Assembly: GCA_036376135.1 (NCBI GenBank)
Contig: DASVAW010000139.1
Coordinates: 1 to 33,737 of the forward strand
Direction of reading: 5' to 3'
DNA from: Candidatus Polarisedimenticolaceae bacterium
Lineage (GTDB): Bacteria; Acidobacteriota; Polarisedimenticolia; Polarisedimenticolales; DASRJG01
DNA length: 33,737 nt
Below, piece after piece: positions 1,304 through 13,611 of this stretch. Both the position numbers and the translations under genes were made by a program. Each line of letters opens with the position of its first letter. The stretch's first letter is position 1. The notes below the pieces were generated by a model. That model worked only from the letters and a program-made list of their open reading frames with translations, was not told where the DNA came from and ran no database searches.

Positions 1304-2008
1304 ATGCGTTGCCCCCGCTGCGGTCACGACGCCGCCGAGAAGGACAGCTTCTGCGCCTCGTGCGGCATGTTCCTGCGCGATGCCTGGATCGACCACCGCC
1401 TGCTCCTGGCGCTCGTCCACGAGCGGGAGGGGCGGCACACCGACGCGCGGCGCGAGCTCGAGCGGCTGCTCGCGGCCGACCCCGGCAACGTCCTCGCGAA
1501 CCACCAGCTGGGAGTCCTGTTCTTCCACCAGGGGACGCTCGACCTCGCGATCGAGAGGTACAAGAAGGCGATCGACGGAGCCCCGCGCTTCCTCCTGTGT
1601 CACTACGACCTGGGCGTCGCGTGGTACCACCGGGGGAACATGCCGGAGGCGATCTGGTCGTACCGGACCTGCCTCGAGATCGACCCCAACTTCAACGCCG
1701 CGCACTACCGCCTCGCGATCGCCCTCTTCCACGCCGGGGAGCTCGACCAGGCGCTCGAGCATTTCGAGAAGTGCACCTCGCTCACCCCCGAGTACCTGAT
1801 GGCCCGCTACCACGTCGGCGTGATCCACGAGCGGCTCGGCGACGTCGCGCGGGCGGAGCGCGAGTTCACCAGGAGCCTGGACGAGGGGGTGGGGGAGGTG
1901 TCGAGCCTGTTCCACCTCGCGGCGATCCGGAAGGCGCGGGGCGACGAGGCCGGCGCGCGCGAGTTGCTCGAGCGCGCGCGGCAGTTCGGTCGCGCCGTCG
2001 TGAAGTAG
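1304..2008 (+). CDS. Zinc-ribbon plus tetratricopeptide repeat protein
   Basis: A 234-residue protein. Cys3, Cys6, Cys17 and Cys20 form an N-terminal zinc ribbon (CPRCG and CASCG knuckles). The rest is helical TPR repeats, with typical units such as LANHQLGVLFFHQGTLDLAIERYKKA reading as a ladder from about residue 40 to 230. No signal peptide or membrane helix is seen, so it is probably a cytoplasmic scaffold. The ATG at 1304 is chosen because GGAGGA lies just upstream; the frame stays open further upstream but that part looks non-coding. It ends 13 bases before the DRE-TIM enzyme at 2022, so the two are probably co-transcribed. The binding partner is unknown. Confidence 0.85.
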   Translation: MRCPRCGHDAAEKDSFCASCGMFLRDAWIDHRLLLALVHEREGRHTDARRELERLLAADPGNVLANHQLGVLFFHQGTLDLAIERYKKAIDGAPRFLLCHYDLGVAWYHRGNMPEAIWSYRTCLEIDPNFNAAHYRLAIALFHAGELDQALEHFEKCTSLTPEYLMARYHVGVIHERLGDVARAEREFTRSLDEGVGEVSSLFHLAAIRKARGDEAGARELLERARQFGRAVVK

Positions 2009-2021
2009 AAGGGAAGGCCCC

Positions 2022-3269
2022 ATGACGACACCTGCCGACGACGGGCTCGTCTACGACTGGGCGGAGCACGGCCCGATGACGTTCCGGCGTCCGGGCGTGC
2101 GGGTGATGCTCGACGACGAGACGCTGCGCGACGGACTCCAGAGCCCCTCGGTCGCCGATCCGCCGCTCGAGGACAAGGTCAAGATCCTGCATCTCATGGA
2201 CCGTCTCGGGATCGAGACGGCCGACGTGGGGCTTCCCGGCGCGGGACCGCGCCAGCGTGAGGCGGTGGAGACCCTCTGCCGCGAGATCGACCGCGCGAAG
2301 CTGCGCATCAAGGCCAACTGCGCGGGGCGCACCCTGATGGTGGACATCCAGCCGATGGCGGAGGTCCAGCAGAAAACCGGCGTTCCGATCGAGGCGTGCC
2401 TGTTCATCGGCTCGAGCCCGATCCGGCAATACGCCGAGGAGTGGGCGCTCGAGCAGATCCTCCGGCACACCAGGGAGGCGGTCACGTTCGCGGTGCGGGA
2501 AGGGCTCGACGTCATGTACGTCACCGAGGACACCGTCCGCTCGTCCCCCGACGACCTGCGCGTCCTGCTCACCGCCGCGATCGAGGCGGGGGCCAAGCGC
2601 GTCTGCCTGTGCGACACGGTCGGCGCCGCGGTCCCGCAGACCGCGTTCAATCTCGTCTCGTGGGTGCGGGGCCTCCTGTCCGAGCTGGGCGTCGCCGACC
2701 GCATCGGGGTCGACTGGCACGGTCACCGCGACCGCGGCCTCGGGATCGCGAACACCCTCGCGGCCGTCGAGGGAGGGGCGACGCGCGTGCACGGCACGGC
2801 GCTGGGCGTGGGGGAGCGCGTCGGCAATACGCCGATGGAGGAGATCCTCGTCAACCTGCGTCTGCTCGGCGTGCGCGACGACGATCTCTCGGCGCTTCCC
2901 GAGTACGTCGAGGCGGTGTCGCGGGCGACCGGGGTCCCGATCCCCGTGAACACCCCGATCGTCGGGAAGGACGCCTTCCGCACCGCGACGGGGGTGCACG
3001 CCGCCGCCGTCGTGAAGGCGCTCCGGAAGGGAGACGCGTGGCTTGCGGACCGGGTCTACTCCGGCGTGCCGGCGAGCTGGATCGGGCGCAGCCAGGAGAT
3101 CGAGATCAGCCACATGTCGGGAAAGTCCAACGTCCTCTTCTGGCTGAACGCTCGCGGGCTCCCCGAGACCTCCGAGATCGTCGACGCGATCCTCGCCATG
3201 GCCAAGACCTCCCAGCGGGTGCTCAGCGAGGCGGAAGTGCTCGAAGCGATCCACCGCGTCCGGGCGTAA
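2022..3269 (+). CDS. DRE-TIM metallolyase family enzyme (2-isopropylmalate/homocitrate synthase-like)
   Basis: A 415-residue TIM-barrel acyltransferase or lyase. The metal-binding DETLRDG signature is at about residues 32-38 and the HGHRD motif (His223, His225) near the end of the barrel, followed by GERVGNTPMEE at about 254. The region SHMSGKSNV near residue 365 belongs to the post-barrel subdomain. The protein is about 100 residues shorter than classical LeuA and lacks the C-terminal leucine-sensing domain. The family condenses acetyl-CoA with a 2-oxoacid or cleaves HMG-CoA-like thioesters; the exact substrate cannot be read from the sequence. GAAGGGAAGG precedes the ATG. The stop codon forms the first bases of the large palindrome at 3267. 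It may be a housekeeping neighbour of the benzoyl-CoA operon, not part of it. Confidence 0.85.
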   Translation: MTTPADDGLVYDWAEHGPMTFRRPGVRVMLDDETLRDGLQSPSVADPPLEDKVKILHLMDRLGIETADVGLPGAGPRQREAVETLCREIDRAKLRIKANCAGRTLMVDIQPMAEVQQKTGVPIEACLFIGSSPIRQYAEEWALEQILRHTREAVTFAVREGLDVMYVTEDTVRSSPDDLRVLLTAAIEAGAKRVCLCDTVGAAVPQTAFNLVSWVRGLLSELGVADRIGVDWHGHRDRGLGIANTLAAVEGGATRVHGTALGVGERVGNTPMEEILVNLRLLGVRDDDLSALPEYVEAVSRATGVPIPVNTPIVGKDAFRTATGVHAAAVVKALRKGDAWLADRVYSGVPASWIGRSQEIEISHMSGKSNVLFWLNARGLPETSEIVDAILAMAKTSQRVLSEAEVLEAIHRVRA

Positions 3270-3322
3270 ATGGGGACAGCAACCTATTTCCCAGTTGGGA
3301 AATAGGTTGCTGTCCCCATTTA
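3267..3322. repeat. Perfect 56-base palindrome (27-bp arms, 2-base centre)
   Basis: Bases 3267-3293 are the exact reverse complement of 3296-3322, with GT between them. The arms contain the block GGGGACAGCAACCTATTTCC and are clearly more AT-rich than the flanks. The stop TAA of the upstream gene is the start of the left arm. No T-run follows, so it is not a standard intrinsic terminator, although a hairpin this strong would still affect the transcript. It resembles REP/RAYT-type or MITE-like repeats dispersed in GC-rich genomes. That class assignment is inference; no second copy was noticed in this window. Confidence 0.9.
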
Positions 3323-3351: not shown

Positions 3352-3379
3352 TGTAATAGGAATTAGGTGTCCTAATTCC
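3352..3379 (+). promoter_or_regulatory. Putative -10 box and overlapping dyad operator of the had-oah-bcr operon
   Basis: TGTAAT at 3352-3357 matches the -10 consensus at five of six positions; no convincing -35 is seen. Immediately downstream, at 3359-3379, lies a 9-bp perfect inverted repeat GGAATTAGG-TGT-CCTAATTCC, where the transcription start would fall. It ends 14 bases before the had start codon. A repressor bound here would block initiation, and an Rrf2-type repressor is encoded at the end of the operon. The dyad could instead be another REP-like repeat, since a larger palindrome lies just upstream. Confidence 0.45.
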
Positions 3380-3393
3380 GAAAAGGGGGTCGG

Positions 3394-4440
3394 ATGCGCG
3401 TCGCCGGTTGGGAGGTGCGGGAACCGGGGCGGCCGATGGTCCTCGCGGAGCGCGAGGAGCGTGCGGGCGCGGGCGAGGTGATCGTCGAGGTGGCCGGGTG
3501 CGGCGTCTGCCACACCGACCTCGGCTACTTCTACGAAGGGGTCCCGACGCGCCACCCGTTCCCCCTCGTGCTCGGCCACGAGATCAGCGGCCGCGTCGTG
3601 GAGGCGGGGGACGGCGCCGCGAGCTGGCTCGGGCGGTCGGTGGTGGTTCCGGCCGTGATTCCCTGCGGGACCTGTCCCGCGTGCCTCGACGGCAGAGGCT
3701 CGGTCTGCCCGAAACAGATCTTCCCCGGCAACGACGTGCACGGCGGTTTCGCCACGCACGTGCGCGTCCCCGCGCGCGGCCTCTGCCCCGTTCCGGAAGG
3801 CGCCGACCTCGTCGCCCTCGCGGTGATCGCGGATGCCGTCTCGACCCCGTACCAGGCGATCGCGCGAAGCGGCCTCGGAGCGGGGGACGTCGCGGTGTTC
3901 GTCGGCGCGGGGGGCGTGGGCGGGTTCGGGGTGCAGGTCGCGGCCGCGCTCGGCGCGCACGTGATCGCCCTCGACGTGGACGACGCGAAGCTGGCGGCGC
4001 TTCGGGAGCACGGAGCCGCGGCGACGTGGAACGTCGCCGCGACCGAGCTCAAGGAGCTGCGCAAGCGGGTGCGCCGCTTCGCGGAGGAGCGCGGGGTCCC
4101 GACCTGGCGCACGAAGATCTTCGAGACCTCGGGGACGCCGGCCGGCCAGGCGACGGCATTCGGCCTGCTCGCCCACGGCGGCTGGCTCGGCGTCGTCGGA
4201 TTCACTCCGAAAAGCGTCGAGGTGCGGCTTTCGAACCTGATGGCCTTCGACGCCGTCGCCCAGGGGACCTGGGGGTGCGCCCCCGAGCTCTATCCCGAGA
4301 TCGTCCGGCTCGTCGTCGAGGGCAAGATCGCCCTCGAGCCGTTCGTCGAGCGCCGACCGCTCGCGTCCGTCAACACCACCTTCGAGGATCTGCACGCCCG
4401 GCGCGTCGCGCGTCGCGTGATCCTCGTGCCGGAGGCCTGA
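3394..4440 (+). CDS. had: 6-hydroxycyclohex-1-ene-1-carbonyl-CoA dehydrogenase
   Basis: A 348-residue zinc-type medium-chain alcohol dehydrogenase. It should oxidise 6-hydroxycyclohex-1-ene-1-carbonyl-CoA to the 6-oxo compound with NAD+, the step before ring opening. The catalytic-zinc region GCGVCHTD (Cys39) is followed by GHE (His62-Glu63); the structural-zinc cysteines are 91, 94, 97 and 105. The Rossmann motif GAGGVGG starts at residue 171. GCGVCHTDLGYFYEGV, LGHEISGRVV and the PGND..GGFA stretch are features of the Had branch, not of general alcohol dehydrogenases. GGGGGT precedes the ATG. It is the first gene of the operon, and its stop is two bases before oah, the next pathway step, which firmly supports the call. 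Confidence 0.93.
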   Translation: MRVAGWEVREPGRPMVLAEREERAGAGEVIVEVAGCGVCHTDLGYFYEGVPTRHPFPLVLGHEISGRVVEAGDGAASWLGRSVVVPAVIPCGTCPACLDGRGSVCPKQIFPGNDVHGGFATHVRVPARGLCPVPEGADLVALAVIADAVSTPYQAIARSGLGAGDVAVFVGAGGVGGFGVQVAAALGAHVIALDVDDAKLAALREHGAAATWNVAATELKELRKRVRRFAEERGVPTWRTKIFETSGTPAGQATAFGLLAHGGWLGVVGFTPKSVEVRLSNLMAFDAVAQGTWGCAPELYPEIVRLVVEGKIALEPFVERRPLASVNTTFEDLHARRVARRVILVPEA

Positions 4441-4442
4441 GC

Positions 4443-5552
4443 ATGGAGTTCAAGGATCACGACCTCCCCGAGACGAAGGACTGGCCGGGGGTCCTGTACG
4501 AGCAGACGCCGCTGCGAAGCCCCGACGGCGCCGTCGTCGCGGGGCTGCACGCCGTCCGGATCACCCTCGACAATCCGAGGCAATACAACTCCTACACGAC
4601 CGCGATGGTGAAGGGGGTGATCGCCGGAATGCGGCGCGCGTCGAACGACCGCGCCTGCGTGGCGGTCGTCTTCACGGGAGCGGGGGATCGCGCCTTCTGC
4701 ACCGGCGGGAACACCGCCGAATACGCGACCTACTACGCCGGGCGCCCCGAGGAGTACCGGCAGTACATGCGCCTGTTCAACGACATGGTCACGGCGATCC
4801 TGCACTGCGACAAGCCGGTGATCTGCCGCGTGAACGGGATGCGGATCGGCGGCGGCCAGGAGATCGGGATGGCCTGCGACTTCTCGATCGCGCAGGACCT
4901 CGCGGTCTTCGGCCAGGCCGGTCCCCGCCACGGCTCGGCCCCCGACGGGGGGAGCACGGACTTCCTGCCCCTGTACGTCGGGATCGAGGCGGCGATGGAG
5001 AGCTGCACGACCTGCGAGCCGTGGTCGGCGCACAAGGCGCACCGTCTGGGTCTGCTCACGCGGGTCGTCCCCGCGCTCAAGCTCGACGGCGCGTGGATCC
5101 CCAACCCCCTGGTCGTGACCGACCGCTGGCTCGACGGATACGGCCGGATCGTGCACGGCGAGCGCCGCGCGGGGCACGAGCTCGCCGCCGGCAAGGAGAC
5201 CCTCCGGCGGGCCACCGTCGATCTCTCCGAGCTCGACCGCGAGGTCGACGCGATGGTCTGGGCGCTGGCGAACCTGATGCCCGGCTGCCTGTCGAAGACG
5301 ATCGAGAGCCTGCGCAAACACAAGCTCACGCCCTGGGACCGGAACCGCGAGGGGAACCGCGCGTGGCTCGCCCTCAACATGATGACCGAGGCGAAGGCGG
5401 GGTTCCGTGCCTTCCACGAAGGCGGCAAGGAGCGCCGCGAGGCGGACTTCCTCCTCCTCCGGCGACGGCTCGCCGAAGGCGAGCCCTGGGGAGACCCGCT
5501 GATCGACGAGGTCCTGGCGGCCGCCCGTGCCGCGGGCAAGGAGGCGAGATGA
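4443..5552 (+). CDS. oah: 6-oxocyclohex-1-ene-1-carbonyl-CoA hydrolase (ring-opening, BamA/Oah)
   Basis: A 369-residue crotonase-fold enzyme, close to the usual length of about 375. It should hydrate and hydrolytically open the ring of 6-oxocyclohex-1-ene-1-carbonyl-CoA to 3-hydroxypimelyl-CoA. The family-defining block is very well kept: GNTAEYATYYAGRPEEYRQY from about residue 89, then CDKPVICRVNGMRIGGGQE (about 122-140), then MACDFSIAQDLAVFGQAG and PRHGSAPDGGSTDFLPL. This enzyme is used as a general marker for anaerobic aromatic degradation through benzoyl-CoA. Its stop overlaps the GNAT start in ATGA, so the genes are translationally coupled. Confidence 0.96.
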   Translation: MEFKDHDLPETKDWPGVLYEQTPLRSPDGAVVAGLHAVRITLDNPRQYNSYTTAMVKGVIAGMRRASNDRACVAVVFTGAGDRAFCTGGNTAEYATYYAGRPEEYRQYMRLFNDMVTAILHCDKPVICRVNGMRIGGGQEIGMACDFSIAQDLAVFGQAGPRHGSAPDGGSTDFLPLYVGIEAAMESCTTCEPWSAHKAHRLGLLTRVVPALKLDGAWIPNPLVVTDRWLDGYGRIVHGERRAGHELAAGKETLRRATVDLSELDREVDAMVWALANLMPGCLSKTIESLRKHKLTPWDRNREGNRAWLALNMMTEAKAGFRAFHEGGKERREADFLLLRRRLAEGEPWGDPLIDEVLAAARAAGKEAR

Positions 5553-6015: not shown

Positions 6016-7191
6016 ATGAGCGGATCTCTCGCGGGGCTTCTCGAGCGCGCGGAGCGCCTCTATCGCGACCTCTCCTTCTCGGCGGTCGGCGAATGGAAGC
6101 GGCGCACCGGCGGGCTCGCGGTGGGATACATGCCGATCTACGTCCCGCGGGAGCTCTTCCGCGCGCACGGCGTCCTCCCCGTCGGGATCATGGGCGGGGG
6201 CGAGGACCTCGAGATCATCCGGGGCGACGCCTATTACCAGTCGTACATCTGCCACATCCCCCGAAGCACCATCGAGCTCGGTCTCTCGGGAGCGCTCGAC
6301 GTCCTCGACGGCATGGTCTTCCCCGCGATCTGCGACGTGATCCGGAACCTCTCGGGGATGTGGAAGATCGAGTTCCCCGACAAGCTCTCCCGCTACCTCG
6401 ACGTGCCGCAGAACTTCGATCCCGCGGTCGGCGGGGCGTTCTACCGGCACGAGCTCGAGGAGCTCTCCGAGGCCCTCGTCGCCCGGGGCGCGAAGCCCTA
6501 CGACCCCGAGGCGCTGCGCGAGGCGATCGTCGCCTACAACGAGAACCGCGCGCTCGTGCGCGAGCTTTACGCCCTGCGCATCGAGTCCCCGTGGAAGGTC
6601 CCGACCTCCGAGCTCTACATGCTCCTGCGCGCGTCGCTCGTGATTCCCGTCGAGGAGTCGACGGCGATGCTCCGGGAGTACGCCCGCCTCGTCCGCGAGG
6701 ACGCCTCCCGCCTTCCGATGGACCAGGCCCGCGTGCTCCTGACGGGCTCGTTCTGCGAGCAGCCTCCGCTCGGCCTCATCAAGACCCTCGAGCGGGCGGG
6801 CTGCTACATCGTCGACGACGACTTCGTGCAGGTCCACCGCTGGATCCGAGGCGACCTCCCCACCGACGGCGATCCCCTCGAGGCGCTCGTGGCGGCCTTC
6901 CTGGGCGACTCGATCGAAAGTCCGACGCGCTACGCCGGCGAGATCGAGAAGGGCGCGGAGCTCGTCGCGCGGACGCGCGGCTCGCGCGCCGAAGGGGTCC
7001 TGTTCTGCGCGCCGAGTTTCTGCGACCCGGCGCTGCTCGACCAGCCCATGACGGTGAAGGTCCTCGAGAACGCCTCGATCCCGTGGACGGCGTTCAAATA
7101 CGCCGAGAACAACGGCCAGTTCCAGGTCATTCGCGAGCAGGCGGGGACCTTCGCCGATTCGATCAAGCTCTGGAGCGGGGTGAACGCATGA
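6016..7191 (+). CDS. bcrC: Benzoyl-CoA reductase, subunit C (BcrC/BadD type)
   Basis: A 391-residue protein of the BcrB/BcrC/HgdB superfamily, one half of the substrate-reducing module of ATP-dependent class I benzoyl-CoA reductase. Diagnostic blocks are GGGEDLEIIRGDAYYQSYIC, HIPRSTIELGLSG, FPAICDVIRNLSGMWKIEFP and a LDVPQNFDPAVGGAFY stretch. Cysteines in YICHIP and FPAICD are candidate iron-sulfur ligands, as in relatives. A close resemblance to Thauera BcrC and R. palustris BadD is recalled, not computed. It starts two bases after the GNAT stop and overlaps bcrB in ATGA. The related 2-hydroxyacyl-CoA dehydratases are less likely because of the neighbouring had and oah. Confidence 0.93.
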   Translation: MSGSLAGLLERAERLYRDLSFSAVGEWKRRTGGLAVGYMPIYVPRELFRAHGVLPVGIMGGGEDLEIIRGDAYYQSYICHIPRSTIELGLSGALDVLDGMVFPAICDVIRNLSGMWKIEFPDKLSRYLDVPQNFDPAVGGAFYRHELEELSEALVARGAKPYDPEALREAIVAYNENRALVRELYALRIESPWKVPTSELYMLLRASLVIPVEESTAMLREYARLVREDASRLPMDQARVLLTGSFCEQPPLGLIKTLERAGCYIVDDDFVQVHRWIRGDLPTDGDPLEALVAAFLGDSIESPTRYAGEIEKGAELVARTRGSRAEGVLFCAPSFCDPALLDQPMTVKVLENASIPWTAFKYAENNGQFQVIREQAGTFADSIKLWSGVNA

Positions 7192-8468
7192 ACCCGAGCG
7201 CGGCCATGAAGGACGGAAGCCAGCTCCGTCAGAAGGAGATGATCGCGGAGCACTACTCGAGGCTCGCGCACTCCCCGCACACGGGGGAGAAGAGCGTCTA
7301 CACCTTCGTTCCCGGAAACCTCACCGAGCTCGTGCGCAGCTTCGACCTGCTCCCGGTCCTCCCGGAGATCAACGCCCTGCAGTCGGCGATGCGCGGGAAG
7401 TCCAAGGACTACATCGCGATCGCCGAGAAGCTCGGGCACTCCGAGGACGTCTGCACCTACGTGAAGTGCGACGTCGGGATGAAGCGGTCCGGCAACCTCG
7501 GCCCGACCGGCGAGCACCTCCCCGACCCCGACCTGCTGCTGCTCTCCTACACCGGCTGCTTCACCTTCATGAAGTGGTTCGAGCTGCTGAAGGAGGAGTA
7601 CAAGGCCCCCGTCGCCATGCTGCACGTCCCCTATCAGGCGGAGGGGCGCATCACCACGGCCGCGCGCGACTACGTGGTACGCCAGCTGAAGGAGTCGGTG
7701 ATCCCGAAGCTCGAGCAGGTGTCGGGAAGGAAATACGACGAGGACAAGCTGAAGGAAATGCTCGCCCGGTCGAGCCGGGCCGAGGACGATCTCGTGCACG
7801 TGCTCGAGTCGGCCAAGCACCGACCCTCCCCGATCGACGCGTACTTCGGCGGGGTCTACTACATCGGGCCGATCTTCACGGCGTTCCGCGGGACCGAGGA
7901 GGCCGTCGGCTACTACCGCGCGCTGCGGTCCGAGGTCGACGAGCGGATCGCGATGGGGAAGGGGCCCGTCACCCCGGACGGCGAGATGGAGCGCGAGCGG
8001 TTCCGGCTCGTGGTGGAGGGGCCTCCCAACTGGACCTCGTTCCGGCAGTTCTGGAAGATGTTCGCCGACGAGGGCGCCGTCGTCGTCGCCTCGACCTACA
8101 CGAAGGTCGGCGGCGTCTACGACAACGGCTTCCGCCACGACCCCGAGCGACCCCTCGAGACCCTCGCCGAGTACTGCCTCGGCTGCTACACGAACCTCAA
8201 CCTCCCCACGCGCGTCGACATGTTGTGCCGCTACGTCGAGGAGTACGGGGCCGACGGCCTGCTCGTGAACTCGATCAAGAGCTGCAACTCGTTCAGCGCC
8301 GGGCAGCTCATGATGCTGCGCGAGGTCGAGCGGCGGACCGGCCGCCCCGCGGGGTTCGTCGAGAGCGACCTCGTGGACCCGCGCTACTTCTCCGCGGCGA
8401 ACATCAAGAACCGGCTCGAGTCCTATTTCCAGATGATCGAGCAGAAGCGCGCGGGGGGTGCCGCATGA
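7188..8468 (+). CDS. bcrB: Benzoyl-CoA reductase, subunit B (BcrB/BadE type)
   Basis: A 426-residue partner of BcrC in the catalytic heterodimer that binds benzoyl-CoA. Recognisable blocks are EHYSRLAHSPHTGEKSVYTF near the N-terminus, CTYVKCDVGM, LLSYTGCFTFMKWFELLKEE, VEGPPNWTSFRQFWKMFADEG, and LVNSIKSCNSFSAGQLMML near the C-terminus. Cysteines in CTYVKC, YTGC and KSC are candidate iron-sulfur ligands. The length is close to known BcrB proteins. It overlaps bcrC and bcrA by four bases each, giving the C-B-A-D order of bcrCBAD and badDEFG and presumably balanced subunit synthesis. Confidence 0.94.
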   Translation: MNPSAAMKDGSQLRQKEMIAEHYSRLAHSPHTGEKSVYTFVPGNLTELVRSFDLLPVLPEINALQSAMRGKSKDYIAIAEKLGHSEDVCTYVKCDVGMKRSGNLGPTGEHLPDPDLLLLSYTGCFTFMKWFELLKEEYKAPVAMLHVPYQAEGRITTAARDYVVRQLKESVIPKLEQVSGRKYDEDKLKEMLARSSRAEDDLVHVLESAKHRPSPIDAYFGGVYYIGPIFTAFRGTEEAVGYYRALRSEVDERIAMGKGPVTPDGEMERERFRLVVEGPPNWTSFRQFWKMFADEGAVVVASTYTKVGGVYDNGFRHDPERPLETLAEYCLGCYTNLNLPTRVDMLCRYVEEYGADGLLVNSIKSCNSFSAGQLMMLREVERRTGRPAGFVESDLVDPRYFSAANIKNRLESYFQMIEQKRAGGAA

Positions 8469-9769
8469 AGGCCTACGTCGGGATCGACCTCGGCTCGACG
8501 ACGACCAAGGCGGTCGTCCTCGACGACGCGGGGGCGACCCTCGGCCGGGGGATCACGAACAGCCGCTCGAACTACGCCCTCGCCTGCGAGGTCGCCCTCG
8601 GCGAGGCGCTGATCGCCGCGCGTTTCGGCCTCCTCGACCGGGAGCTCGCGGCGGCGGGGATGCCGGAGGCCGAGCGATCGCGGCGGCTGGCCGCCCTGGG
8701 CCTGCGCTTCCGGGGACGCCAGTATCTCGCGCAGCTCGAGGTCTTCCGCCGCATCGCCGCGAGGATCGTCGCGCACGACCTGCTCGCGCGCGGCGTCGCT
8801 CCCGTCGTCGACGGCATGCTCGACCGCATGGCCGGGGAGGCGCGGACGCTGTTCGCCGAGGGAGCGAGCCGCAAGTCCGACTTCTTCCGGGACCTCGCGG
8901 GGAGCCGGTTCCTGCAGCTCGCCGAGGAGGTCTCGCGCGACGGCGCCGCGGCGTTCGACCGGCTCGTCGGGGTCTTCGACAAGGCGATCCTGGAGGTCGA
9001 GAACACCCCCTCGGGAGCGGAGGACTTCGGGACGCACGCACGCGCCGCCTCGGCGGACCTCGAGGACGCACCCGACGCGTTGCGGCGCGCGGTCGAGGCG
9101 GTCGCCTCGGTGCCGCTCCAGGTCGCCTCGTCGGTGGGGACCGGGTACGGCCGGCAGACGCTCCCGTTCCCGAAGGAGCAGATCCGCTCCGAGATCCTCT
9201 GCCACGGCCTCGGCGCGCACGCGATGTTCCCCGGAACCCGCACCGTCCTGGACATCGGCGGCCAGGACACCAAGGCGATCCAGGTGGACGACCGCGGCAT
9301 CGTCACCTCCTTCCAGATGAACGACCGTTGCGCGGCGGGATGCGGGCGTTACCTCGGCTACATCGCCGACGAGATGAACCTCGGCCTGCACGAGCTCGGG
9401 CCGATGGCCTGCAACTCCTCCCGCCCGGTGCGGATCAACTCGACCTGCACCGTCTTCGCGGGGGCCGAGCTGAGGGAGCGGCTGAGCCTGGGCGAGAAAC
9501 GCGAGGACATCCTGGCCGGCCTCCATCGCGCGATCATCCTGCGCGCGATGTCGCTCCTGGCGCGGTCGGGCGGGGTCGCGAACGAGTTCACCTTCACCGG
9601 GGGCGTCGCCAAGAACCCCGCCGCGGTCGACGCGCTGCGCGGCCTGATCCGCGAGAACTACGGCGAGGTCGCGATGAACATCTCCCCCGACTCGATCTAC
9701 ACCGGAGCGCTGGGCGCGGCGCTGTTCGCCTGGCGCGACGCCCGCCGCGGCGAGGAGGCGGCGGCATGA
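8465..9769 (+). CDS. bcrA: Benzoyl-CoA reductase, ATPase/electron-activating subunit A (BcrA/BadF type)
   Basis: A 434-residue ASKHA-fold ATPase (BadF/BadG/HgdC family). The phosphate-1 loop GIDLGSTTTKAVVLDD is at about 6-21, phosphate-2 VLDIGGQDTKAI at about 261-272, and the adenosine motif FTGGVAKN at 377-384. Cys289 (in NDRCAAGCGRYLG) and Cys328 (in NSTCTVFAGAE) are 39 residues apart, matching the spacing of the two cysteines that each HgdC monomer contributes to its bridging [4Fe-4S] cluster. With BcrD it should hydrolyse ATP to push a low-potential electron into BcrBC. The large insert between the two ATPase halves is usual for BcrA. It overlaps both neighbours by four bases. Confidence 0.95.
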   Translation: MKAYVGIDLGSTTTKAVVLDDAGATLGRGITNSRSNYALACEVALGEALIAARFGLLDRELAAAGMPEAERSRRLAALGLRFRGRQYLAQLEVFRRIAARIVAHDLLARGVAPVVDGMLDRMAGEARTLFAEGASRKSDFFRDLAGSRFLQLAEEVSRDGAAAFDRLVGVFDKAILEVENTPSGAEDFGTHARAASADLEDAPDALRRAVEAVASVPLQVASSVGTGYGRQTLPFPKEQIRSEILCHGLGAHAMFPGTRTVLDIGGQDTKAIQVDDRGIVTSFQMNDRCAAGCGRYLGYIADEMNLGLHELGPMACNSSRPVRINSTCTVFAGAELRERLSLGEKREDILAGLHRAIILRAMSLLARSGGVANEFTFTGGVAKNPAAVDALRGLIRENYGEVAMNISPDSIYTGALGAALFAWRDARRGEEAAA

Positions 9770-10605
9770 ACAGCGCGGGGATCGACGTCGGCTCGTCGGC
9801 GGTGAAGGTGGTCGTCGCGCGCGCGGAGGCGGGCGCGTCCGCGATCCTCGCGTCGGGGGTCGAGAGGATCCGGCGGCGGGATCCGCAACAGGTCGCGGCC
9901 TCGCTTTTCGAGCGCTGCGTCGAGGAATCGGGGCTGAAACGCTCCGACCTCGCCTACGTCGCGACGACGGGGGAGGGGGAGATGGTCCCCTTCCGCACCG
10001 GCCACTTCTACGGGATGACGACGCACGCGCGCGGCGGCCAGTACCTCGAGCCGGACGCGCGCGCGGTGATCGACATCGGCGCGTTGCACACCCGCGCGGT
10101 GCTGATGGACTCGCGCGCGAAGGTCGAGGCGTACCGGATGACGAGCCAGTGCGCCTCGGGCTCCGGGCAGTTCCTCGAGAACATCTCGCGTTACCTGGGG
10201 ATCACGATCGACGAGATCGGGCCGCTGTCGCTGCAGGCCGACGACCCCGAGGCGTGCTCGTCGATCTGCGCGGTTCTGGCGGAGACCGACGTCATCAACA
10301 TGGTGAGCCGCGGGATCCGCGCCCCGAACATCATCAAGGGGATCCACCAGTCGATGGCGGGGCGGTACCTGCGCCTGCTGACCTCGGCCGGGGCGCGCGG
10401 CGTCGTGCTCGTCACCGGCGGACTCGCCGGGGACGTCGGCCTGATGGCGGCGCTGCGCGAGGCGGCCGAGGCCCAGAAGGCCGCGGTCGACATCCGCGCC
10501 CACGATCGGTCGATCCTTGCCGGGGCGATCGGCGCGGCGCTGTGGGGAGCGTTCCGCGCCGAGCGCCTGGCCCGCGAAGGCGTGACCTTCGCGGCGGAGG
10601 CCTGA
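9766..10605 (+). CDS. bcrD: Benzoyl-CoA reductase, ATPase/electron-activating subunit D (BcrD/BadG type)
   Basis: A 279-residue ASKHA ATPase, the short partner of BcrA. Phosphate loop GIDVGSSAVKVVVA is near residue 5, VIDIGALHTRAV at about 101, and VLVTGGLAGD near 215. Cys129 (MTSQCASGSGQF) and Cys168 (CSSICAVLAETDVINMVSRGI) are again 39 residues apart, so BcrA and BcrD could each supply two ligands to a shared [4Fe-4S] cluster. The size matches known BcrD/BadG, and it completes the four-subunit enzyme. The stop is followed after one base by the SDR start. Confidence 0.95.
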   Translation: MNSAGIDVGSSAVKVVVARAEAGASAILASGVERIRRRDPQQVAASLFERCVEESGLKRSDLAYVATTGEGEMVPFRTGHFYGMTTHARGGQYLEPDARAVIDIGALHTRAVLMDSRAKVEAYRMTSQCASGSGQFLENISRYLGITIDEIGPLSLQADDPEACSSICAVLAETDVINMVSRGIRAPNIIKGIHQSMAGRYLRLLTSAGARGVVLVTGGLAGDVGLMAALREAAEAQKAAVDIRAHDRSILAGAIGAALWGAFRAERLAREGVTFAAEA

Positions 10606-10606
10606 G

Positions 10607-11317
10607 ATGCGCATCCTCGACCTTCGGGGGAAAACCGCTCTGGTGACCGGGGGCTCCGGAGGGATCGGCCTCGCCGTCGTCGGCCTGCTCCGGGAGGCGG
10701 GGGCGGAGGTCTTCAGCCTCGACCTCCCGGGGAGGCTGAACCCCTCCGGCGCGACCGCGATCGAGGCCGACCTCACCGACCCCGGGGCGGTCGCGGCCCT
10801 CGGCTCGCGGATCGCGAAGCTCGACATCCTCGTGCACGCCGCGGGAATCACCCGCGACGCGGTCCTGTGGAAGCTCGACGACGCCGCGTGGCGCGACGTC
10901 TTCGCGGTCAACCTCGACGCGGCGTTCCACCTCCTGCGCGAGGTGGTTCCGTGGATGCGCCGGGACGGCGGCGGCTCGATCGTGCTCGTCGCGTCGATCA
11001 ACGGCGAGCGCGGGAAGATCGGCCAGGCCAACTACGCCGCGAGCAAGGCGGGATTGATCGCCCTGGCGCGCACCGCGGCCCGCGAGACGGGCCGCTTCCG
11101 GATCCGCGTGAACGTCGTCTCGCCGGGGCTCATCGACACCCCGATGACCGCGGGCCTCGACCCCGAGGTGAAGCGGCGCGCGATCGAGGAAACCGCCCTC
11201 GGCAGGTCCGGCTGCCCCGAGGACGTCGCGAACGCGGTGTTGTTCCTGGTTTCGCCGTGGGCCGCGCACGTCACGGGCCAGGTGCTGCGGGTGGACGGCG
11301 GGCAGCTCATCGGATGA
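10607..11317 (+). CDS. Short-chain dehydrogenase/reductase (FabG-like)
   Basis: A 236-residue classical SDR. The cofactor motif TGGSGGIG is at 14-21 and HAAG at 77-80. The catalytic Ser130 (LVAS), Tyr143 and Lys147 (YAASK) are all present, and it ends in the usual VDGGQLIG. The family oxidises or reduces beta-hydroxy/beta-keto acyl thioesters and other carbonyls. Its place one base after bcrD suggests a role on a downstream CoA ester. 3-hydroxypimelyl-CoA dehydrogenase is one reasonable guess, since oah yields that compound, but the sequence alone does not show the substrate. A detached fatty-acid or polyhydroxyalkanoate reductase is an alternative. Confidence 0.85.
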   Translation: MRILDLRGKTALVTGGSGGIGLAVVGLLREAGAEVFSLDLPGRLNPSGATAIEADLTDPGAVAALGSRIAKLDILVHAAGITRDAVLWKLDDAAWRDVFAVNLDAAFHLLREVVPWMRRDGGGSIVLVASINGERGKIGQANYAASKAGLIALARTAARETGRFRIRVNVVSPGLIDTPMTAGLDPEVKRRAIEETALGRSGCPEDVANAVLFLVSPWAAHVTGQVLRVDGGQLIG

Positions 11318-11334: not shown

Positions 11335-11802
11335 ATGACCACGATTCGCGGGCTGCGGCCCGAGGACCTCGACGCGGTGATCGCGCTGGACGCCCGGAAC
11401 ACCGGCCGCCGGCGCGAGGAGTTCTTCCGGCTCAAGCTCCAGCAGAACCTCGTCGAGAGCGGGATCAAGGTGTCCCTCGCCGCCGAGCTCGACGGGGCGT
11501 TCGTCGGCTTCCTGCTCGCGCGGGTGTTCTACGGCGAGTTCGGGCGTCTGGAGCCCGCCGCGGTCCTCGACACGATCGACGTGCACCCCGACTTCCGGAA
11601 CCGCGGCGTCGGCCGCGCGCTCCTCCGGCAGCTGCGGGTGAACCTGCGCGGGCTGAACGTGCCGAGGCTGCAGACCGAGGTCGCCTGGGAGAACCCCGAC
11701 GTCCTGATGTTCTTCCACCACGAGGGGTTCCGGCCGTCGCCGCGGATCTGCCTGGACCTCGACCTCTCGTCGCCCCCCTCCGACGACGAGGCGCCCGCGT
11801 GA
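11335..11802 (+). CDS. GNAT-family N-acetyltransferase coupled to the Rrf2 gene (BadL-like candidate)
   Basis: A 155-residue GCN5-type acetyltransferase. IRGLRPEDLDAVIALD opens the fold. TIDVHPDFRNRGVGRALLRQL is a textbook acetyl-CoA loop (RNRGVG), and VLMFFHHEGFRPS closes it. GGGAGGGGAG lies just before the ATG at 11335; an ATG at 11314 overlapping the SDR stop is possible but has a weaker site. The stop overlaps the Rrf2 GTG start (GTGA). In R. palustris the GNAT BadL acetylates aminobenzoates and the products release BadM, an Rrf2 repressor, from the reductase operon. The same two families side by side here suggest an equivalent ligand-making step; the substrate remains unproven. Confidence 0.85.
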   Translation: MTTIRGLRPEDLDAVIALDARNTGRRREEFFRLKLQQNLVESGIKVSLAAELDGAFVGFLLARVFYGEFGRLEPAAVLDTIDVHPDFRNRGVGRALLRQLRVNLRGLNVPRLQTEVAWENPDVLMFFHHEGFRPSPRICLDLDLSSPPSDDEAPA

Positions 11803-12245
11803 ACCTGCAGAAGGGGACGCGCTACGCGCTCTACGCCGCCGCCGCGCTCGCGCGGGCCTGGGGGAGGGAGCCCGTCACGGCGTCGGGACTCGCGAAGGCG
11901 CACGGCCTCCCGGCGACGGTGGTCGCGAAGGTCCTCCAGGATCTCGCCCGCGCGGGGCTCGCGACGGGGCAGCGCGGCACGCGCGGCGGGTATCAGCTCG
12001 CGAAGGCGCCGCACCGGATGACCCTGCTCGACGTCGTGGAGGCGTTCGAGCCGTCGCATCCCGGGATGGAGGAGGATCGGCTGCGCCGGGTCTTCGAGGA
12101 GATCGACGCCTCGACGCGCGCGACCCTCGCCTCGATCACCCTCGAGACGTTGATCGGCGCGCGACGAGATCGGACAGGAGCACGAGCGCTTCCTCCCGCG
12201 TCCGAACCTCGCCGCGATCCCGCGCGTTCTCGATCGCGGCGATGA
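11799..12245 (+). CDS. Rrf2-family transcriptional regulator (BadM-like candidate)
   Basis: A 148-residue winged-helix protein. GTRYALYAAAALARAW opens the fold, a recognition-helix region follows (LPATVVAKVLQDLARAGL, about 37-54), then the wing GQRGTRGGYQLAKAP and the MTLLDVVEAFE dimer segment. There is no cysteine in the whole protein, so it cannot hold an Fe-S cluster as IscR and NsrR do; it more likely senses a small molecule or acts constitutively. The GTG start overlaps the GNAT stop. From about residue 113 the gene overlaps the convergent cca gene, and its last ~30 residues are arginine/proline-rich and atypical for the family. It probably controls the operon starting at 3394; the dyad at 3359-3379 is a candidate site. 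Confidence 0.85.
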   Translation: MNLQKGTRYALYAAAALARAWGREPVTASGLAKAHGLPATVVAKVLQDLARAGLATGQRGTRGGYQLAKAPHRMTLLDVVEAFEPSHPGMEEDRLRRVFEEIDASTRATLASITLETLIGARRDRTGARALPPASEPRRDPARSRSRR

Positions 12246-13611
12246 GCCGGCCCATCTCGGGCCCGGGGGGCACCCCGAGCGCGAGCGCATCGCGCCCCTG
12301 AACCAGGGGCTTCGCCGGCTCCACGTCGAGGGCGTGCTGCGCGACCGTCGCGGCGAACCGGTCGCCCGGGGGGTGCGGCCCGGTCCGGACGTCCTCGAAG
12401 GCGCGTCCGCGCCAGTCGGCCTCGCACGCGGCGAGGAAGACCCGCCACGGGGTCGGGTGGAGCCGCTTGACCAGCTTGCGCACCGCGTTCACGTAGGCGC
12501 GCTCGTCGATCTGCCCCTTCTCGAGGTCCCGATGGAGCGCGTGCGGCAGGGCGTGCCACTTGACGATCCCGACGACCGCGCGCTCGACCTCCTCCCCGAA
12601 CGTCAGGCGCGAGAGCACGGCGCGCGCGAGGGGCTCTCCGGCGGACTCGTGTCCGGGGGAGACGACCCGCTCGACCCCGTCCTTGACCAGCCGCGTCGTC
12701 GAGACGGGCTTGCCGACGTCGTGCAGGAGCGCGCCGAGGACGACCTGGAGGCGCTGCGCGTCGTCGAACCCCCACGCGGGGCGGCGGGAGAGCTCCGCGG
12801 CCCGGTCGACGACCAGCATCGTGTGGATCCAGACGTTCCCCTCGGGGTGCCACTCCGGCTCCTGCGGGGTCGCCTCGTAGGCCTCGAGCTCGGGAAACAG
12901 CTCCCGGATCGCGCCGATCGCGCGGGCGAGCTCGAGCCCCTTCGACGGCGCCGGGGCGTCGACGAAGAGCTTGCGCAGCTCCTCGGTGACGCGCTCCCGG
13001 CTGAGCTGGCGCAGGTCCCCGCGCGCGACCATCCCGCGCATCAGGTCGAGGGTGCCGGGCTCGGGGACGAGGTCGAACCGGGCCGCGATCTGCACCCCGC
13101 GCCAGACGCGCAGCGGGTCGTCGCCGAACTGGGACGGGTCCACGACGCGGAGGACGCGCGCGCGCAGATCGGCGACGCCCCCCCAGGGATCGAGGATCTC
13201 GCCGGTGATCGGGTCGAGGGCGACGGCGTTCACGGTGAAGTCGCGCCGGCGCGCGGCCTCCTCCGGACCGAGGTACGGGTCCCCCTCGACGACGAACCCC
13301 TGGTGTCCGGGTCCCGCCTTCGAGTCGCGCCGAGGGATCGCGACGTCGAGGTCGACGCCGCGCGCAAGGTGGATCTTGAAGACCCCGAACGACCGCCCGA
13401 CGACGTTGAGCCGCCGGGGGAACATCCGATCGAGCAGGGGCTCGAGGCGCTCGGTCGGCACGCCGTGGACCTCGACGTCCACGTCGAGGGTCTCGCGGCC
13501 GACGAGCCGGTCGCGCACGTACCCGCCGACGATCAGCGCCCGGCCGCCGGCCTGCGCCGCGACCTCGCGGGCGAGCGCGCGCACGGCGTCCTGGGGGTCG
13601 AGCGCTTCCAT
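12136..13611 (-). CDS. cca: tRNA nucleotidyltransferase / poly(A) polymerase family protein with HD domain
   Basis: A 491-residue class II nucleotidyltransferase. GGYVRD (29-34) and the metal-binding DVDVEV (about 43-48) form the active site, and RRRDFTVNAVALDP follows at about 121-134. The head/neck region FGDDPLRVWRGVQIAARFDL is typical of CCA-adding and poly(A) polymerase enzymes. An HD phosphohydrolase-like motif (LLHDVGKP, His297-Asp298) lies in the C-terminal half. The expected role is adding or repairing the 3' CCA end of tRNA; poly(A) addition cannot be excluded. Its last 110 bases run antisense to the Rrf2 gene end. It starts 10 bases after the aspartyl protease stop and is probably in one operon with it and ogt. 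Confidence 0.9.
   Translation of the reverse strand: MEALDPQDAVRALAREVAAQAGGRALIVGGYVRDRLVGRETLDVDVEVHGVPTERLEPLLDRMFPRRLNVVGRSFGVFKIHLARGVDLDVAIPRRDSKAGPGHQGFVVEGDPYLGPEEAARRRDFTVNAVALDPITGEILDPWGGVADLRARVLRVVDPSQFGDDPLRVWRGVQIAARFDLVPEPGTLDLMRGMVARGDLRQLSRERVTEELRKLFVDAPAPSKGLELARAIGAIRELFPELEAYEATPQEPEWHPEGNVWIHTMLVVDRAAELSRRPAWGFDDAQRLQVVLGALLHDVGKPVSTTRLVKDGVERVVSPGHESAGEPLARAVLSRLTFGEEVERAVVGIVKWHALPHALHRDLEKGQIDERAYVNAVRKLVKRLHPTPWRVFLAACEADWRGRAFEDVRTGPHPPGDRFAATVAQHALDVEPAKPLVQGRDALALGVPPGPEMGRLIAAIENARDRGEVRTREEALVLLSDLVARRSTSRG

Follow-up and report, generated by a model that had tools for sequence, protein, structure and literature searches.

A probable BadL–BadM-type control circuit within a class I benzoyl-CoA reductase operon

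A class I benzoyl-CoA reductase operon in the stretch of DNA analysed here (33,737 nucleotides, hereafter the window) ends in two overlapping genes, one for a GNAT acetyltransferase and one for an Rrf2-type repressor. This arrangement raises the question of whether the operon is controlled as in R. palustris, where aminobenzoates acetylated by BadL cause BadM to leave the badDEFGAB promoter (VanDrisse and Escalante-Semerena 2018, PMC6191541), and, if so, which acetyltransferase plays the part of BadL. An earlier note on this DNA had likened the two terminal genes to badL and badM, suggested that they form a portable unit of sensor-maker and repressor, and proposed a comparison of both proteins with BadL and BadM by phylogeny.

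The operon and its two acetyltransferase genes

The gene pair at 11335–12245 is real. Both open reading frames are present with their Pfam domains, they overlap at GTGA as the earlier note had described, and they close a same-strand run with the order had-oah-GNATA-bcrC-bcrB-bcrA-bcrD-SDR-GNATB-rrf2, in which had, oah and all four reductase subunits were assigned by NCBIfam equivalog cut-offs (Table 1). The adjacency of the terminal GNAT gene and rrf2 recurs in four relatives (loci L039, L041, L201 and L202) and is thus not due to chance. A second GNAT gene, missing from the earlier note, lies further upstream in the same operon; we refer to it as GNATA and to the terminal one as GNATB.

Table 1. 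Genes of the operon and the predicted operator in the window
Feature	Position	Strand	Evidence and remarks
Predicted Rrf2 operator, 21-bp perfect dyad GGAATTAGG-TGT-CCTAATTCC	3359..3379	+	14 nt before had start codon
had, 6-hydroxycyclohex-1-ene-1-carbonyl-CoA dehydrogenase	3394..4440	+	TIGR03201 above cut-off; first gene after predicted operator
oah, 6-oxocyclohex-1-ene-1-carbonyl-CoA hydratase	4440..5552	+	TIGR03200 above cut-off; start codon near 4437–4443
GNATA, BadL orthologue by tree and identity	5549..6013	+	PF00583; overlaps oah stop codon (ATGA); between oah and bcrC
bcrC, benzoyl-CoA reductase subunit C	6016..7191	+	TIGR02263 above cut-off
bcrB, benzoyl-CoA reductase subunit B	7206..8468	+	TIGR02260 above cut-off
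bcrA, benzoyl-CoA reductase subunit A	8465..9769	+	TIGR02259 above cut-off
bcrD, benzoyl-CoA reductase subunit D	9766..10605	+	TIGR02261 above cut-off
SDR, short-chain dehydrogenase	10607..11317	+	PF13561, E 1.3e-53; often adjoins bcrD in the phylum (synteny)
GNATB, bcr-linked GNAT family	11335..11802	+	PF00583, E 1.8e-10; 155 aa; ATG start; gggagggg just upstream
rrf2, BadM-clade repressor	11799..12245	+	PF02082, E 3e-25, full-length domain; 148 aa; GTG start; last operon gene

No protein of the window's own genome passes the TIGR02262 cut-off for benzoate-CoA ligase (the best reaches 267 of 375 bits), and 2 of 41 genomes of the class have a protein above it. Given this profile of its own genome, the growth substrate of the operon may be something other than benzoate.

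On the upstream side, genes for a TPR protein and an HMGL-like aldolase/synthase occupy 1307–3269, ahead of the predicted operator; their homologues adjoin the reductase cluster, after GNATB, in three other loci (L044, L048 and L049). On the downstream side, a gene of the poly(A) polymerase/CCA-adding type (PF01743, HD; 12136–13611, minus strand) lies tail-to-tail with rrf2 and overlaps its 3' end by about 110 nt.

As the reference for BadL we used three genomes (G084–G086) that stand in for R. palustris CGA009; we take them as members of the R. palustris group because their BadA proteins match the PDB sequence of BadA at 98–99% identity. Each of them has one GNAT gene beside badM, whose product is taken here as BadL; the reported gene order in R. 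palustris is rpa0663 badM, rpa0664 badL, rpa0665 hbaH (PMC6974649). GNATA is 40% identical to these BadL proteins (E about 1e-31 to 1e-33), as compared with 26–29% for GNATB (E about 1e-7 to 1e-9). In a GNAT tree of 74 rows, GNATA and the BadL proteins form one clade (30 rows, support 99/94), and the GNATB proteins form a separate one (33 rows, support 98/90), in the count of which two more distant bcr-linked GNATs that fall outside it (L056 and L057) are not included. Assigning the role of BadL to GNATB was also tried directly, and the grouping of BadL with the window's GNATB clade was rejected by the AU test (p = 3.3e-5). As judged by tree and identity, GNATA is the BadL orthologue of the operon; by the same measures and the AU test, GNATB is a distinct GNAT family tied to bcr genes and not BadL, contrary to the resemblance that had been claimed for it. 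The badL–badM clusters already published for Geobacter metallireducens (gmet_2096) and Magnetospirillum magneticum (amb3392) have reported identities to RpBadL of 47% and 41%, respectively (PMC6191541), figures that, compared as reported, resemble those of the GNATA clade and not of GNATB.

Partners of the repressor across genomes

In our survey of the phylum, which covered class I reductase loci reached via BcrB in 396 genomes plus loci reached via GNAT, the Rrf2 repressor occurred in seven genomes (that of the window, G007, G024, G346, G331, G310 and G009). All seven carry GNATA, as compared with a GNATA-like gene in 1 of 40 others (Fisher p = 1.3e-7, counts uncorrected for relatedness). The corresponding figures for GNATB are five of the seven versus about 18 of the 40 (Fisher p = 0.24, likewise uncorrected for relatedness). 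Some loci among the 40 repressor-less genomes end at contig ends. In about 18 clusters GNATB follows bcrD or SDR with neither this Rrf2 nor GNATA present, and two genomes (G009 and G310) have the repressor without GNATB. The constant placement of GNATB after bcrD or SDR suggests a role connected with the reductase and not with the Rrf2 repressor.

The same tie was seen in Alphaproteobacteria, where a GNATA/BadL profile search of 385 genomes gave matches in 22, and 19 loci with a full BadL could be read. A BadM-type gene directly follows BadL in all 19. Alphaproteobacterial GNATB, found in 7 of 20 loci, consists of two GNAT domains fused in tandem (roughly 300–340 residues) and lies apart from badL–badM, the only locus where it adjoins them being that of R. 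pseudopalustris. Examples of such tandem fusions are L081:16120-17076, L286, L287, L290, L291, L295, L297 and L300.

The recurrence of BadL–BadM in two phyla, with the repressor tracking GNATA, argues that a portable unit of sensor-maker and repressor does exist, and that it is made of GNATA and Rrf2. The idea of portability put forward earlier is thereby retained, with the partner of the repressor changed from the overlapping GNATB to the more distant GNATA. That badL and badM recur together in other bacteria had already been reported (PMC6191541).

Whatever its ancestry, GNATB could still be the functional partner of the overlapping rrf2 and the maker of its ligand, as the possible translational coupling at GTGA, the same neighbour pair in four relatives and the tandem-fusion GNATB-type protein adjoining BadL–BadM in R. 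pseudopalustris would lead one to expect. We regard this as unlikely, given the rejected orthology to BadL, the many clusters with GNATB and no such repressor, the two genomes with the repressor and no GNATB, and the separation of GNATB from badL–badM in the other alphaproteobacterial loci.

A different role for both acetyltransferases would be to modify proteins of the reductase complex (on lysine or at the N-terminus), with no part in induction. GNATB has a GNAT fold (PF00583; structure model with pLDDT 85), and the folds closest to its model include N-terminal protein acetyltransferases, a match that does not discriminate among GNATs; in PDB sequence and fold searches, aminobenzoate and protein acetyltransferases were not separable. 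The tie of GNATB to bcrD in most clusters, with no repressor gene nearby, would also fit such a role. The evidence against it concerns GNATA only, which is an orthologue of BadL; homologues of BadL acetylate aminobenzoates but did not acetylate BadM (PMC6191541). As an account of both proteins we consider it very improbable.

In L076 (G009), a divergent reductase, its BcrB about 31% identical, comes after had-oah-GNATA-SDR-rrf2 and GNATB is missing; the control genes appear to have been retained while the reductase differs. In L203 (G310), also lacking GNATB, rrf2 stops after about 45 codons and the predicted operator before had is retained; the shortening could reflect disruption of the gene or an assembly break. 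L228 (G343) carries a divergent GNATA-like gene ahead of an SDR gene and of a distantly related class I reductase (BcrB 39%); the part of the locus that was read shows no BadM-type gene.

A predicted operator ahead of had

The region upstream of had contains a dyad with two perfect arms of 9 nt each. When upstream-of-had sequences were compared side by side, related dyads were found at the matching place in the six other repressor-bearing genomes. Scored by a leave-one-out matrix (built from the six other sites), the dyad ranked first in 7 of 7 loci with 27.7–39.4 bits; non-overlapping matches in the same scan were no higher than about 12 bits, and shuffles (five per locus) gave at most 16.6 bits. 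The best operator score in 22 repressor-less clusters of the phylum, scanned in full, was 14.0 bits. The seven-site pattern has exactly one zero-mismatch place per genome and, since it was built from those same sites, its weight rests on the absence of other places in each genome. An independent local count gave 0 mismatches at 3359–3379, where shuffled sequence would yield 0.03 sites with three mismatches or fewer. Relative to the other genomes, AAATAGG is changed to AATTAGG in one arm of the window's dyad and CCTATTT to CCTAATT in the other, and this matching change supports selection on the dyad. From these observations we infer that the dyad is the operator of the Rrf2 repressor, which would place an operator before the reductase operon as in the case of BadM, here as a sequence prediction.

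A consensus scan of the window promoter revealed no recognisable −35 element, and TTGACN occurs upstream of the dyad in several relatives. The operator motif of the phylum was looked for in the badD promoter of R. palustris and is absent there, no position in those loci scoring above 12 bits. A matrix made from four alphaproteobacterial sites ranked a badD-promoter site first in L170, L169 and L081 and not in L168, with small margins, and is given no weight here.

A longer inverted repeat occupies 3267–3322, with two perfectly complementary 27-nt arms (TAAATGGGGACAGCAACCTATTTCCCA) that are 2 nt apart. It begins where the HMGL-like gene ends, on the stop codon, reaches to 36 nt before the predicted operator and is similar in character to a repeat element; its arms include CCTATTTCC, which resembles the operator half-site of relatives.

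The repressor and the proposed circuit

The window's Rrf2 protein, five full-length homologues from the phylum and 21 alphaproteobacterial BadM-type proteins form one clade (support 99/95). Among the Rrf2 proteins of the window's own genome that were compared (this one and three others), it is the best match of BadM (E 7e-15; the next, 4e-13), with an identity of 33–35%. By this placement it is a BadM-clade protein, and the resemblance to BadM suggested earlier stands. The proposed phylogenetic comparison was thus borne out for the repressor, and for the acetyltransferases it placed GNATA inside the BadL clade and GNATB outside.

Overall, the window probably holds a circuit of the BadL–BadM type that governs anaerobic aromatic degradation. 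Both control genes lie within the operon that they would regulate, and GNATA would make the ligand. The Rrf2 repressor would sit on the dyad ahead of had, shutting off the entire run had-oah-GNATA-bcrCBAD-SDR-GNATB-rrf2. The product of GNATA would be the releasing ligand, a small acetylated aromatic, with an aminobenzoate or a similar aromatic amine as the most likely acceptor. Once the ligand frees the operator, the operon would be turned on, yielding more GNATA and more repressor; with the gene for GNATA among those induced, induction would be self-reinforcing, and the position of rrf2 at the operon end would add negative feedback.

The proposed circuit shares with that of R. palustris a class I benzoyl-CoA reductase locus holding both a BadM-clade Rrf2 and a BadL-clade GNAT, an operator (predicted, in the window) before the degradation operon, and a repressor without a cysteine triad. 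It differs in that bcrCBAD-SDR-GNATB stands between the window's BadL (GNATA) and the repressor gene, the two control genes belong to the operon they would regulate, and an extra acetyltransferase, GNATB, is present; the operator sequence is also different, and the repressors are about 33% identical. In R. palustris badL and badM are apart from badDEFG and on the other strand, so that the wiring differs from that of the window.

What the repressor senses could be questioned in view of its relatives. The five full-length homologues of the phylum (L039, L041, L076, L201 and L202) contain C-X8/9-C-X5-C, an iron-sulfur-type motif as in cluster-binding Rrf2 proteins, and the reductase is oxygen-sensitive (PMC6191541); the repressor might accordingly respond to oxygen, redox state or iron via iron-sulfur chemistry instead of an acetylated aromatic, with the GNATs serving otherwise in the pathway. 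In the window protein, however, the cysteine loop is missing and there are zero cysteines altogether, and the alphaproteobacterial BadM-type proteins have zero or one cysteine and lack the motif. Moreover, the BadM of R. palustris, without the triad, responds to acetamidobenzoates (PMC6191541), and sensing by a cluster would leave the strict tie between the repressor and GNATA unexplained. We therefore hold this reading to be quite unlikely, and prefer release by a GNATA-made ligand.

Cysteines are present in most other Rrf2 proteins of the set compared, and the simplest reading is that the motif was lost twice, independently, in the window lineage and in the alphaproteobacterial one. A broader and more speculative extension, which we find possible though doubtful, is that BadM-type repressors of the phylum are two-input sensors, in which an Fe-S cluster would report on oxygen or redox state and an acetylated aromatic made by GNATA would report on substrate. 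The cluster would have been lost twice, once in the window lineage and once in the alphaproteobacterial one, and GNATB would be a dedicated, undescribed acetyltransferase of the class I reductase.

If the proposed circuit is correct, a switch whose repressor is released by the product of an acetyltransferase, experimentally described and little sampled, would extend to another bacterial phylum. The analysis corrects the choice of the acetyltransferase to be assigned to this switch and supplies a precise 21-bp predicted site. As far as can be judged from sequence, what is new is the phylum, the operon-internal arrangement, the predicted operator, the cysteine-bearing relatives of BadM and the recognition of GNATB as a distinct bcr-linked family that accompanies the reductase across many genomes. 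The cysteine-bearing relatives raise the question of whether some BadM-type repressors hold an Fe-S cluster and of how a lineage could pass from sensing through a cluster to sensing of a ligand.

The structure model of the window's Rrf2 protein (mean pLDDT 70.6, moderate) has the Rrf2 fold, the nearest solved structures being RsrR, CymR and IscR. The fold is common to cluster-binding IscR, NsrR and RsrR and to clusterless CymR; unlike IscR, NsrR and RsrR, the window protein has no cysteine ligands, belongs to the BadM clade and has a single predicted site, before the bcr operon.
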